In this document: positions 20,488-36,901 of the stretch, piece after piece
Numbering within the stretch: position 1 is the stretch's first letter
How the letters are laid out: each line of letters begins with the position of its first letter
NCBI GenBank assembly: GCA_016928835.1
Contig: JAFGJW010000006.1
Location: forward strand, 62,001 to 126,000
Source of the DNA: Candidatus Woesearchaeota archaeon
Lineage (GTDB): Archaea > Nanobdellota > Nanobdellia > Woesearchaeales > GW2011-AR15
DNA: 64,000 nucleotides
Direction of reading: 5' to 3'
The notes under the pieces: generated by a model
The model's database searches: none
What the model saw: the letters and a program-made list of their open reading frames with translations, nothing else
Told to the model about the DNA's origin: nothing
Made by a program: the position numbers and the translations under genes

Positions 20488-20553
20488 GTAAGGTGGGTGC
20501 CCCTTACCAACCCCTAGCAAAGTGGGGGGTGGAAGGGGGGCTTTGCCCCACTT
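20488..20553. repeat. G/C-rich hairpin block (family copy 1)
   Basis: Two hairpins lie in an otherwise A/T-rich gap: GTAAGG/CCTTAC (20488-20507) and a longer one with arms AAGTGGGG and CCCCACTT (20520-20553) enclosing another G-rich/C-rich run. The segment GGGGGCTTTGCCCCACTTCTAAA resembles blocks near 26520 and 36030, so it looks like a dispersed palindromic repeat. It would lie in the leader of a transcript from the distal thermosome promoter. It could also act as a terminator for IleRS. Confidence 0.5.
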
Positions 20554-20585: not shown

Positions 20586-20668
20586 TTTAAATAGCTCACG
20601 CGAGAATGTCCAGTGAAACAAAGTTGAACTAGGCTAGGAAATTCCCTTATTTTGTGCTGTCCAGTGAA
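20586..20668 (-). promoter_or_regulatory. Repeated promoter-upstream element, copy A
   Basis: On the minus strand two identical boxes TTCACTGGACA (20658-20668 and 20607-20617) are 51 bases apart. The proximal one is followed after 13 bases (containing TCGCGTGAG) by a TATA-like TATTTAAA. Copy B at 36132-36214 has the same boxes, the same 51-base spacing and nearly the same sequence between them. Copy C at 36870-36901 has one box at the same distance from its TATA. Downstream are a hairpin block and the thermosome gene. Likely a two-site operator, though a mobile repeat is possible. Confidence 0.55.
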
Positions 20669-32962: not shown

Positions 32963-33643
32963 ATGTGCGGAAGATTCTCGCTAGCTGCAGTGGGGCCGAC
33001 ATTGGCCGATTTTTTTAATATCAGAGTAGATGAAACTCTGAAACCGAGGTATAATATCGCACCTACACAACAAGCGCCAGTAATTACCGGAGACAAAGCA
33101 GAAGAATTAATAATGATGAGGTGGGGGCTAATACCTGGCTGGGCCAAAGAAATCGAGACAAAGTATAGTATGATTAATGCAAGGGCTGAGACTTTAACCA
33201 GCAGACCTGCTTACAAAAAACCATTCCAAAGTCAGCGCTGCCTTGTACCTGCAGATGGTTTTTATGAATGGAGAAAAACTCCTACTGCGAAGATACCTTA
33301 CAGAATTACTTTAAGGGATAATGGATTGTTCGCTTTTGCAGGGATATTTGACATTTGGAAAGATGAAGAAGGCAGGGAAATAAAGTCATTTACAATCATA
33401 ACTGTACCGCCAAACAGCTTAGTTAGGGAACTGCATAACAGGATGCCAGCTATTTTAAGAAGAGAGCATGAAAAATTATGGTTGCACAGCACAGCAGCGG
33501 AAAAATTAATTGAGATAGCACTAAAACCGTATCCTTCTGAAAAGATGAAGGCCTACCAAATCTCTCCACTAGTGAACTCTCCCAGCAATGACTCTTTTGA
33601 AATTATCAAGCCTGCAGAGACAAAGACATTATTTGATTATTAA
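32963..33643 (+). CDS. SRAP-domain protein (YedK/HMCES family, abasic-site sensor)
   Basis: Starting at ATG 32963 gives MCGRFSL, placing the catalytic cysteine at position 2 as required in this family; the longer track ORF would bury it. Other conserved elements are RYNIAPTQ (about 30-37), MRWGLIPGWA, INARAET, FYEWRK (catalytic Glu) and LHNRMPAIL (catalytic His). The family forms a stable crosslink to abasic sites in single-stranded DNA and protects replication forks. A TATA-like TTTATATT about 25 bases upstream suggests a leaderless message. Its 3' end overlaps the convergent PolB gene by 38 bases. Confidence 0.92.
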   Translation: MCGRFSLAAVGPTLADFFNIRVDETLKPRYNIAPTQQAPVITGDKAEELIMMRWGLIPGWAKEIETKYSMINARAETLTSRPAYKKPFQSQRCLVPADGFYEWRKTPTAKIPYRITLRDNGLFAFAGIFDIWKDEEGREIKSFTIITVPPNSLVRELHNRMPAILRREHEKLWLHSTAAEKLIEIALKPYPSEKMKAYQISPLVNSPSNDSFEIIKPAETKTLFDY

Positions 33644-35765
33644 TCTTATCAGGTTTCTCCAAGTACTCATGTAATTTACTCTGTTTTTCATAATCCGCTA
33701 ATTCATTTATTTCTTTCCTTGTAAATCCAAATGGCTGCAGGACAACAAATAATGCTCTAACCAATAGTTTTTTATAATGTTCGATATCAGGCTTGCCGCG
33801 ATAATCTTCTGGCAGAACAATACCCTTTTCTGAATAGATAAAATACATTTTTTGACCTGGCTGCATAGAAACATTTTTCCTGTTAAGCAAATCCAATACA
33901 ATTTTTTGAGGCACATCATTTTTGTAGTCTGTCTTGCTTATTACAATTGAGGAGGATAACATTCCTGCTTCTTGCATTGGGAGCATGAATATTGTTTTTC
34001 TTAGCAACTGGCATAGGTACGGAAACATTTCTATTATCTCTTTTTTTGTGTTGCATTGGCCGATTAATCTAAGAACCTCCATTTGGAATTGCTTTACTAT
34101 CTTAGGGGCGCCTCTCTGCCTTGCCTCTAACCCTCTCACTTTTATATCTCCGTTCAGGAAAACACCATAGTAATGGGTTGGGATTGGTCTGTGGTAATCG
34201 TTTATACTTGGCAGGAAAACAATCCATCTGTAAATCCCCTCAAATGAAACAGGAATCCCTGTTTCAAGCTCAATGGCTCTGCATATCTCCCTAACTTCTA
34301 TCTCATTTATGTCTTTTTTTTTGATGTAAAGTGAATCGACTATTCCGTGCACTATTTTGAATCCCTCTTCTTCACAAATCATTTTTGCCTTTATCATTAT
34401 CTCCCTGGCAAACGCGCCTATGGTCATATGGCTTGTTGCTATCCCAAGCTTAAACTCTCTGAAGCGCAGATAGCCATAGGAAGTAACTAAAACCCACTTT
34501 AGACCAACTGACTTGGCCTTGTTCAAAGAAGTTGGATTTGCCTTGTAGTGCATTCTCCTATCAAGAAAAGGCTTTATTGCTATTGGCACAATTCCCTTTC
34601 TCCTCAAAGAAATCTTCAGCGGAAGACCAGGAACTTTCTGGTAAGGCGGTTCACCTCCTTGAATATTCTCTGTACTTATATTATAGTTGTATATAATCCA
34701 AGGAAATAATGAACTAAAATCTATTTCAGCAACATCATGATGTAGCCCGGTTATTGAGTCAAAGGTATGGCCGACCCTATCAAATTTCAATAAAGTATAG
34801 AGTGTCACAGGCTGATCAACTGGCTTTTCTTTAAAAGGCACAAGACAATCTCTCCTAACCATTTCACGTATCAAAGCAGATTGGAAAACAGCACCGAAAC
34901 TTCTTGAGGCGACCTGCTGGAATCTTGTTCCAGAAATAGAAGAAAGTTCGGTAATTGCCTTTAAACAGCATTCAGAGCCAACCATTGTCCCGCTGTCTAT
35001 TAAGAACCGTCCCTTTAGCCTTATTGCATACTCACGATGGACAACCCTACCATAGCTAAAGAAAGATTTGCTCCCTTTGGATTCTATCTTTGTATAGTCC
35101 CACCTGTGAAAAGGACATTTGAGTCTATAAGCTTCAAGTCTTCTGACAAGATAAGGAAGCTTTGCAAATGCGTTCTCCATTAGGATAATATCAGGGTCCT
35201 CAGATATGAAGAGTTCTGTGAACCTTTTTAGGATAGTTTCCTCACTGCCGGTTATTTCTTTACCATTGGTAAGAATAGTTTCCACAGCTGCGTTTTTATC
35301 AGCTCTTATATCTCTTGAAGGAATAATCTCTATATCCATCTTGTCCATTAGAACAGCAGCTTCTTGGTCTAAAGAGAGTATTTTATTATTATAGACTTCT
35401 ACATAAAAAAAAGGTTTTAAATTACTCTTGTAAAGGAACATCTGTTCAGGAGGTATGTCTGCGTCATATAGGTTTATTCTATGCCTGGCTTCTCTTTCAA
35501 TTCTCCTAACAATTCTCTCAAAACAGCTTATTTTTTTAATTGCTATTTCATAAACTTTCTTTATTTCTCCTTTGTAAGTCTTTTTTTCAACAATTCTGTT
35601 GGGGACATTATATTTTCTTAAGATAGACTCGGCAAGTTCACAGCATTCCAGGTAAAGATAATGCCTAAAATTTTTCTCTATCCTTATATTGCTATTGCCT
35701 AGTGTTTTTAACCACAAGATTATTTTGTTTCCATGCCTGTATGAGTCAATCAGTATTGCCTTCAT
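33606..35765 (-). CDS. Divergent family B DNA polymerase (PolB2-like)
   Basis: The 719-aa protein has a polB fold with altered motifs. Motif A is EIDFSSLFPW (Asp kept), motif B is KWVLVTSYGY, and motif C is GIVDSLYI, not YGDTDS, so the first of its two aspartates is lost. The exonuclease domain is recognisable (AFAKLPYLVRRLEAY) but its acidic residues are mostly gone, so proofreading is probably absent. This fits the archaeal PolB2/Dpo2 clade, linked in crenarchaea to error-prone damage tolerance. The start overlaps the 80-aa gene by 20 bases. Whether it is catalytic is open. Confidence 0.82.
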   Translation of the reverse strand: MKAILIDSYRHGNKIILWLKTLGNSNIRIEKNFRHYLYLECCELAESILRKYNVPNRIVEKKTYKGEIKKVYEIAIKKISCFERIVRRIEREARHRINLYDADIPPEQMFLYKSNLKPFFYVEVYNNKILSLDQEAAVLMDKMDIEIIPSRDIRADKNAAVETILTNGKEITGSEETILKRFTELFISEDPDIILMENAFAKLPYLVRRLEAYRLKCPFHRWDYTKIESKGSKSFFSYGRVVHREYAIRLKGRFLIDSGTMVGSECCLKAITELSSISGTRFQQVASRSFGAVFQSALIREMVRRDCLVPFKEKPVDQPVTLYTLLKFDRVGHTFDSITGLHHDVAEIDFSSLFPWIIYNYNISTENIQGGEPPYQKVPGLPLKISLRRKGIVPIAIKPFLDRRMHYKANPTSLNKAKSVGLKWVLVTSYGYLRFREFKLGIATSHMTIGAFAREIMIKAKMICEEEGFKIVHGIVDSLYIKKKDINEIEVREICRAIELETGIPVSFEGIYRWIVFLPSINDYHRPIPTHYYGVFLNGDIKVRGLEARQRGAPKIVKQFQMEVLRLIGQCNTKKEIIEMFPYLCQLLRKTIFMLPMQEAGMLSSSIVISKTDYKNDVPQKIVLDLLNRKNVSMQPGQKMYFIYSEKGIVLPEDYRGKPDIEHYKKLLVRALFVVLQPFGFTRKEINELADYEKQSKLHEYLEKPDKINNQIMSLSLQA

Positions 35766-35988
35766 TTTTCATTAATTCTTTCTCATGCTCCAGCAGGATT
35801 GAGAATAAAATCAATGCCCATGTATTATAGGAGCAGGCGAAACTTATGCTGCTTATATGCCTCTTTACTTTTGCCAAGAGTGTTGTAAATGCATCCTTCT
35901 CATCTTCCCTCAATGATTTCCCGTAATCCATTAATTCCTGTAGGATTGTGTCCACAACAATTCTCTGGCTTGATACTGTGTGTCCCAT
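35746..35988 (-). CDS. Small conserved partner of PolB2
   Basis: The 80-aa helical protein (MGHTVSSQR start, SISFACSYNTWALILFSILL later) lies directly upstream of the polymerase and overlaps it, so the two are co-translated. From memory, small proteins with an MGHT start accompany some archaeal polB2 genes, but I cannot confirm that here. It could be a polymerase accessory subunit. Its promoter is probably copy B of the repeated element, which would leave a leader of about 120 bases with strong hairpins. Confidence 0.5.
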   Translation of the reverse strand: MGHTVSSQRIVVDTILQELMDYGKSLREDEKDAFTTLLAKVKRHISSISFACSYNTWALILFSILLEHEKELMKNEGNTD

Positions 35989-36024
35989 TTTGACTTATGC
36001 TAGTTTAATAAAATATTTCAGAAA

Positions 36025-36086
36025 GGGGACTCTGTCCCCCTTCGACCCCCTGAAGCGAGGGAGTTCAAGAGGGGTATCCCCTCTTG
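36025..36086. repeat. G/C-rich hairpin block (family copy 3)
   Basis: Two hairpins: GGGGAC-TCT-GTCCCC (36025-36039) and a perfect nine-base stem CAAGAGGGG-TAT-CCCCTCTTG (36066-36086), within an A/T-rich gap and flanked by AATATTT on both sides. It lies between repeated element copy B and the PolB2 operon, just as copy 1 lies between element copy A and the thermosome. The blocks may be leader structures or debris of a mobile repeat. Confidence 0.5.
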
Positions 36087-36131: not shown

Positions 36132-36214
36132 TTTATATACCTCACACGGGAATGTCTAGTGAAACAAAGTTGGACTGGGCTAGGAAATTCCCTTAATTTC
36201 CGCTGTCCAGTGAA
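36132..36214 (-). promoter_or_regulatory. Repeated promoter-upstream element, copy B
   Basis: On the minus strand: TTCACTGGACA (36204-36214), then 51 bases on TTCACTAGACA (36153-36163), then 13 bases ending GTGTGAGG and a TATA box TATATAAA. The 40-base interval between the boxes is nearly identical to copy A. The inferred start of transcription near 36109 leads into the 80-aa/PolB2 operon. The spacing equals about five helical turns, as expected for two sites bound on one face of DNA. Confidence 0.55.
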
Positions 36215-36415: not shown

Positions 36416-36847
36416 CTACACAAATAGGATATCATCAGCAAATTTCTTAGCAAACCTACCATGCATTGAATCTTCTGCTATCCCAACATTAACCTGAATA
36501 TTTTTTGACAATCGCCCCATTATTTCCCAGCAATTCTCTAGAACATTATAATTCTCTAATTCATCATCATATGAAAATAATATATGGATTGTTGTTATAA
36601 CCAGTATTACAAGCCCAAGTTCCTTTGTCCAAGTTGGAGCTTGTTTTAATGCGTCTCTAAACCGATAAATGGCTTCTGCATTTACAACATAGACTCTATG
36701 TAATTGTTCTTCTTTTATAATTGGAAAAAGATTATGCGGGTTAGCTGCATTACCGCAATCCAGTATAAGAGAAGGTGTTTTCTCGAATGATTTTAGTAAT
36801 AGAGTTTGATTCACTTCATCGGGACATCCTCTATAAGCGATTAGCAT
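36416..36847 (-). CDS. Probable inactive RecA/RadB-fold protein
   Basis: The 143-aa protein lacks a Walker A P-loop, but the order of strands (SLILDCGN, RVYVVNAEAIYRF, GLVILVITTIHILFSYDDE, IQVNVGIAED, ADDILFV) resembles the core of RadA/RadB after the P-loop. I therefore suggest a degenerate RecA-fold protein; this is a judgement from pattern, not a confirmed match. Bacterial ImuA, a RecA-like protein without full ATPase activity, serves error-prone polymerases in a similar way. Promoter copy C lies at leaderless distance (TATA centre about 26 bases before ATG 36847). The track's TTG start adds one residue. Confidence 0.45.
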   Translation of the reverse strand: MLIAYRGCPDEVNQTLLLKSFEKTPSLILDCGNAANPHNLFPIIKEEQLHRVYVVNAEAIYRFRDALKQAPTWTKELGLVILVITTIHILFSYDDELENYNVLENCWEIMGRLSKNIQVNVGIAEDSMHGRFAKKFADDILFV

Positions 36848-36869
36848 CAATTAAGAGATTAAATCAACT

Positions 36870-36901
36870 TTTAAATATCCCACGCGAAAATGTCCAGTGA
36901 A
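36870..36901 (-). promoter_or_regulatory. Repeated promoter-upstream element, copy C
   Basis: On the minus strand TTCACTGGACA (36891-36901) is followed by 13 bases (TTTTCGCGTGGGA) and TATTTAAA, then the RecA-fold start codon about 26 bases after the TATA centre. This copy has no distal box, but its distance from box to TATA (21 bases on the plus strand) is identical to copies A and B. Because it fits a working leaderless promoter, it sets the orientation of the whole family. Confidence 0.6.

Follow-up and report, generated by a model that had tools for sequence, protein, structure and literature searches.

A TATA-coupled promoter element that probably controls an order-wide DNA-repair regulon in Woesearchaeota

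We describe a 30-bp promoter element, CACTGGACATTCNCGCGTGAGN-TATWTAAA (minus-strand reading), that occurs in three copies (A, B, and C) in a 64,000-nucleotide stretch of Woesearchaeota DNA, referred to below as the window. The element probably controls a regulon of DNA-repair and DNA-processing genes that extends across the order in Woesearchaeota and is analogous to the bacterial SOS regulon. Its spacing, its orientation to the target gene, the kind of gene that it precedes, its conservation, and its occupancy of the place of the TFB recognition element (BRE) are all directly observed. Judging from the functions of the targets alone, the inducing signal would be DNA damage.

Three copies of the element in the window

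The window belongs to contig C8 in a genome of 1.53 Mb (G000). A sequence-only reading of the window had reported five boxes with associated TATA-like sequences. All were found where it had placed them, on the minus strand: TTCACTGGACA at 20607-20617, 20658-20668, 36204-36214, and 36891-36901, and, with one mismatch, the proximal box of copy B at 36153-36163. The TATA-like boxes lie at 20586-20593, 36132-36139, and 36870-36877, each beginning exactly 21 bases before the proximal box (plus-strand coordinate), and the 40-bp interval of A is nearly identical to that of B (35 of 40 positions). The 51-bp distance between paired boxes was likewise correct for A and B; as a general rule it did not hold, being peculiar to these two copies, and the extra boxes in other genomes are mostly 7 bp upstream. 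Searched for alone with up to 2 mismatches, the 11-mer box showed no enrichment in the window (15 matches, compared with 19 expected). The full geometry of box plus TATA occurred 3 times in the window and in none of 100 Markov simulations of it. Coordinates are given in Table 1.

Table 1. Copies of the promoter element in the window and the genes that copies B and C would control
Feature	Coordinates	Strand	Remarks
Copy C, CACTGGACATTTTCGCGTGGGA-TATTTAAA	36870..36899	-	22 nt before ATG of RecA-like gene
Target of C, 144-aa protein, putative RecA-like	36416..36850	-	Leaderless ATG at 36847
Copy B, CACTAGACATTCCCGTGTGAGG-TATATAAA	36132..36161	-	Upstream of PolB2 operon
Distal CACTGGACA box of B	36204..36212	-	51 bp upstream of proximal box; without its own TATA
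First gene of PolB2 operon, 80-aa protein, no family assigned	35746..35988	-	
Family-B DNA polymerase	33606..35765	-	Pfam: DNA_pol_B only
Copy A, CACTGGACATTCTCGCGTGAGC-TATTTAAA	20586..20615	-	Without a leaderless ORF after it
Distal CACTGGACA box of A	20658..20666	-	51 bp upstream of proximal box

Copies C and B recur at orthologous loci of relatives. As had been proposed, C is at leaderless-promoter distance from the RecA-like gene, which it would control; the 144-aa product has no Pfam match, and "RecA-like" is the description given in the sequence-only reading. For the orthologue in genome G013 (44% identity; E value, 1e-36), the element likewise lies 22 nt ahead of the start codon, and PolB2 follows the gene. 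Copy B does lead to the PolB2 operon, which it would control: the element is upstream of the 80-aa gene and PolB2 (a label that combines the earlier naming with the operon context), and the leader, of about 130 nt, contains a GC-rich inverted repeat. In G006, the element lies immediately upstream of a PolB2 relative (33% identity); G008, whose contig begins at this point, was outside this comparison. GC-rich inverted repeats are located in the leaders downstream of both A (window positions 20500-20553) and B (36021-36086), and a similar GC-rich stretch is found near the copy on contig C16.

Copy A is upstream of the thermosome gene by position, as the sequence-only reading had it, but not as a conserved site: its TATA box is 197 nt from the start codon, and the element was present at the thermosome in 0 of 19 relatives. 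The thermosome was consequently rejected as a target. Copies A and B and the promoter of a LAGLIDADG gene on contig C9 have about 85 bp of flank in common, indicating that promoter regions have been duplicated within this genome. Because of this common sequence, A may be a promoter copy produced by duplication and now lacking a gene; it is an intact promoter element without a certain target.

The common flank is also what favors a mobile repeat of the MITE or REP type carrying a promoter, which the sequence-only reading had offered as an alternative and which we consider very improbable. Elsewhere, conservation is limited to about 30 bp, information content drops to background on both sides, and neither a conserved flank nor a terminal inverted repeat is present. 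Moreover, the orientation of the element and its 22-nt distance to start codons are fixed, and it is found in a consistent promoter position at orthologous genes of other genomes in the order.

Distribution, orientation, and promoter anatomy

A search of the whole 1.53-Mb genome, suggested as a check by the sequence-only reading, identified 10 copies of TGTCYAGTGAA and 1 copy of the reversed control. A profile built from 17 copies detected about 14 sites in this genome and comparable numbers in other members of its family. We then applied a strict pattern, CACTGGACATNNNNRYRYRNNNTWTWTAWA, with at most 1 mismatch, to 60 genomes of the same order. It matched 174 sites in 36 genomes, with no strict site in the other 24, and the pattern read backwards matched 0 sites. 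An exact scan over 85,462 species genomes matched at least 111 stretches. Among the matches listed, the named records were Woesearchaeota, Nanoarchaeota, and other DPANN metagenome-assembled genomes, plus a few whose labels are doubtful ("Aenigmatarchaeota," "Euryarchaeota," and one "Aminicenantes" bin). The sole viral match was a contig with portal and major head protein genes (L372), on which the element (L372:7738-7767), with two tandem boxes, is 22 nt before a leaderless 37-aa ORF. This viral copy parallels the SOS boxes of phages and suggests that the virus has a Woesearchaeote host.

The gene on the TATA side of the element points away from it in 115 of 122 cases (p=3e-26), and gene orientation on the opposite side is mixed (70 to 54). 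The leaderless start codon is typically 22 nt past the TATA box. Among spacer-12 sites having an ORF within 90 nt, with start codons chosen by script, the distance was 21 to 25 nt in 51 of about 95, with a mode of 22. The near-palindromic TATA box permits two readings; the gene context indicates that the element is an upstream promoter site of leaderless genes and that the minus-strand reading is the appropriate one for the window.

The plus-strand alternative was a short coding sequence beginning MSSETKL, or a small RNA. A and B do have an open frame of 8 to 14 codons in common, and a TATA-like sequence is upstream of it on the plus strand. However, the two frames end at different points, the sequence past TGTCCAGTG is not conserved in other copies, an Rfam search gave no match, and the plus-strand side lacks a consistent gene orientation. 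The frame arises fortuitously from the reverse complement, with nothing conserved beyond the box, and the chance that it is a coding remnant or an RNA gene is negligible. On the orientation statistics and the absence of downstream conservation, a plus-strand promoter of a small RNA or ORF was rejected. A link to tRNA genes was also considered and rejected, as only a few copies are near tRNAs.

The consensus of 152 sites is CACTGGACAT-T-Y-N-C-RYRYRA-R-N-TATWTAAA. Conservation of the first ten bases and of the TATA box is partly by construction, since both were fixed by the search pattern. The RYRYR part, fixed only as purine or pyrimidine in the collection scan, further prefers GCGTG, and loci from a profile search that permitted gaps have the same spacing of 12, rarely 14. 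Additional CACTGG boxes on the same strand are present within 60 bp upstream at 54 of 162 sites, 28 of these boxes at exactly 7 bp, compared with 5 boxes in reverse orientation. The pairs spaced by 51 bp in A and B are a version of this upstream multi-box arrangement.

Ordinary leaderless promoters at the same loci have an A-rich BRE, with A at 75% at position -4 and 89% at -3. Promoters with the element read CGTGAG at the BRE position; hence, the element substitutes for the canonical A-rich BRE, and this suggests that the promoters have a dedicated regulator. Where the sequence-only reading had named inconsistent TATA spacing or gene context as evidence against an operator, we found a fixed geometry and a consistent promoter position.

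Target genes and the likely signal

We annotated 75 leaderless targets using Pfam and NCBIfam. They include 16 LAGLIDADG proteins, 8 Cas4-like proteins, 4 each of MCM, RNase_H_2, and Hef, 3 each of XerA, GyrI-like, and BRO-N proteins, and 2 each of RadC, Cdc6, DNA methylase, and TnpB-type proteins. Targets recognized by eye are UvrA, an ERCC4-type (XPF-type) nuclease, an Hjc-like protein, DUF763, and a radical-SAM protein. The neighbors across from the targets at these sites are for the most part unrelated housekeeping genes. By our own classification, about 50 of the 75 targets are in the DNA-processing class, compared to 6 to 12 of 61 controls (Fisher p, 6e-12 to 5e-8), the control count being a range because it is based on the first 25 of 104 control families. 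When LAGLIDADG proteins were not counted as hits, the numbers were 34 of 75 and 12 of 61 (p=0.002). In the genome containing the window, the targets are the RecA-like gene (C), the PolB2 operon (B), an NreA-type gene (Nre_N), a Cas4/Dna2-like nuclease, an RNase_H_2 protein, XerA, three LAGLIDADG genes, a GyrI-like protein, a protein with the sequence NLPEKKF, and a 38-aa ORF. The earlier proposal of an operator for a shared stress or damage regulon is thus supported by the geometry, the single orientation, the repair targets, and the order-wide conservation; its heat-stress part, with the thermosome as a member, is not.

Several targets have features of their own. The frame of the NreA-type gene behind the element (L062, G000:C8 at about 306800) is broken at a poly-A run, which may be a sequencing error or real. 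LAGLIDADG proteins are the commonest targets, and some have N-terminal HTH-like regions (L047, L019, L126, L157, L178, and L243, among others); it is possible that they are homing endonucleases timed to damage, or regulators. The element also precedes a conserved, very short ORF of 22 to 45 aa with the pattern N..I..LFF.QIK.MT, adjoining TsaC/Sua5 genes (L046, L114, L135, L177, L197, L201, L205, and L239), often with a GC-rich hairpin in the leader. The NLPEKKF protein, of about 90 aa, is a recurrent target (L132:1134-1409, L138, L140, L144, L176, L186, L203, and L234) without a Pfam match. Its AlphaFold2 (AF2) model (pLDDT, 87) has four strands and one helix. Since the best match in a fold search, although weak, was Borrelia Pur-alpha (E value, 0.02), the protein is possibly a nucleic-acid binder.

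The same promoter element could respond to replication or cell cycle timing, or to DNA uptake or foreign DNA, rather than to damage. MCM at 4 loci and a Cdc6-lid AAA protein (an Orc1 paralogue) at 2 are replication-type targets. The frequency of LAGLIDADG, Cas4-like, XerA, DNA methylase, and TnpB-like targets, as well as the copy on a viral contig, would fit a response to foreign DNA. With LAGLIDADG, transposase-type, DNA methylase, and small no-family proteins among its targets, the regulon could thus serve replication or mobile DNA instead. However, a repair regulon better accounts for the combination of UvrA, Hef, the ERCC4-type nuclease, RadC, NreA, PolB2, Hjc, BRO-N/DinD-like, and GyrI-like proteins, and ribosomal, division, or central replication operons are not recurrent targets. 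We consider these other signals unlikely and DNA damage the better reading.

Candidate regulators and comparison with known systems

We expect that a sequence-specific protein would bind the CACTGGACA core together with the alternating purine/pyrimidine half beside the TATA box (RYRYRA), and that it may occupy several successive boxes on one strand. Given the missing canonical BRE and the rigid spacing to the TATA box, the protein would most likely act as an activator that recruits TFB/TBP upon DNA damage. A repressor that masks BRE and TATA and is released by damage would be nearly as plausible, and we favor the activator only slightly. At archaeal activator promoters with a weak BRE, the regulator site abuts BRE and TATA and could recruit TFB. 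Unlike at those promoters, the 22-bp upstream part of the element is invariantly spaced across many families of one order.

In some genomes, the genes of two HTH families are themselves preceded by the element. The first (L074 type) has it in three genomes but is absent from the site-rich genomes G001 and G008 and was rejected. Members of the second are about 157 aa long with a predicted helix-turn-helix, and the gene is present in a single copy in 53 of the 60 genomes. In the rows aligned, they are 54 to 71% identical to the copy in G000, and the element precedes the gene in four genomes. The family was not found in G025, a genome with 6 sites, and for this reason the protein stays a lead. 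A single-sequence AF2 model was poor (pLDDT, 64), and a search for a relative of solved structure found none. We regard this protein (for example, L302:1489-1959) as the best lead for the regulator; it would bind CACTGGACATTCNCGCG.

A different possibility is that the element is an origin recognition box (ORB; an Orc1/Cdc6 site), with an Orc1 protein as the regulator, as Orc1-2 is in Sulfolobales. The archaeal ORB reads TTCCACTGGAAAC, and CACTGGA agrees with half of it. In two genomes (L102 and L109), the element precedes the gene of an Orc1 paralogue, and the role of Orc1-2 as a damage regulator in Saccharolobus (PMC9738581) is a precedent. The element nevertheless lacks the ORB dyad TCCANTGGA with its G-tract, and its sites are dispersed at promoters, whereas origin boxes cluster beside orc1. 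No element-like box cluster was present near Cdc6_C genes at 30 loci; with boxes absent near orc1, Orc1 was rejected as the regulator. The paralogue was observed as a target in just those two genomes. In addition, the Sulfolobales Orc1-2 element (DDRE) is ANTTTC (PMC9738581), and the conserved columns of CACTGGACATTCNCGCGTGAGN contain no such hexanucleotide. An origin-box identity is, in our view, quite improbable.

The bacterial SOS regulon, defined by the LexA box, is a close parallel to the repair regulon that we propose. In both, one short operator precedes dispersed repair genes genome-wide, including uvrA and an accessory polymerase, and both include DinD-like and GyrI/SbmC-like proteins and have a copy in a virus. 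They differ in that the archaeal element is a different box, in a TATA promoter, at a fixed distance from TATA. They also differ in that the LexA DNA-binding domain (PF01726) has no match in G000 at an E value of ≤0.001; in relatives, matches were weak and mostly short and partial, in some genomes.

Coordinated damage regulons are well known in bacteria. Those controlled by DdrO/IrrE in Deinococcus (RDRM) and by PafBC/DriD resemble the one proposed here in being independent of LexA, and differ in that their promoters and regulators are bacterial. The Deinococcus RDRM/DdrO system is a bacterial parallel (PMC5552922), with a conserved promoter motif of damage genes. The archaeal damage regulon found in the literature that we searched is that of Sulfolobales (Orc1-2), and a search of the same literature for regulons of Woesearchaeota, DPANN, and Nanoarchaeota found no damage regulon. 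The DDRE of Sulfolobales is likewise an archaeal promoter motif of damage genes; the Woesearchaeota motif is unrelated to it in sequence and spans 30 bp including TATA.

On balance, we lean towards an SOS system that spans the order, is independent of LexA, and uses a novel promoter element and a novel class of regulator; its promoter would have been captured by viruses and homing-endonuclease genes. The element yields a concrete list of targets, including proteins without an assigned function that now resemble repair factors, such as the RecA-like gene product, the NLPEKKF protein, and the short ORFs beside TsaC. Its sequence offers a starting point in the search for the regulator and might also mark the hosts of archaeal viruses. 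By analogy, the regulon looks like an archaeal counterpart of the bacterial SOS regulon in an order of tiny uncultured archaea.
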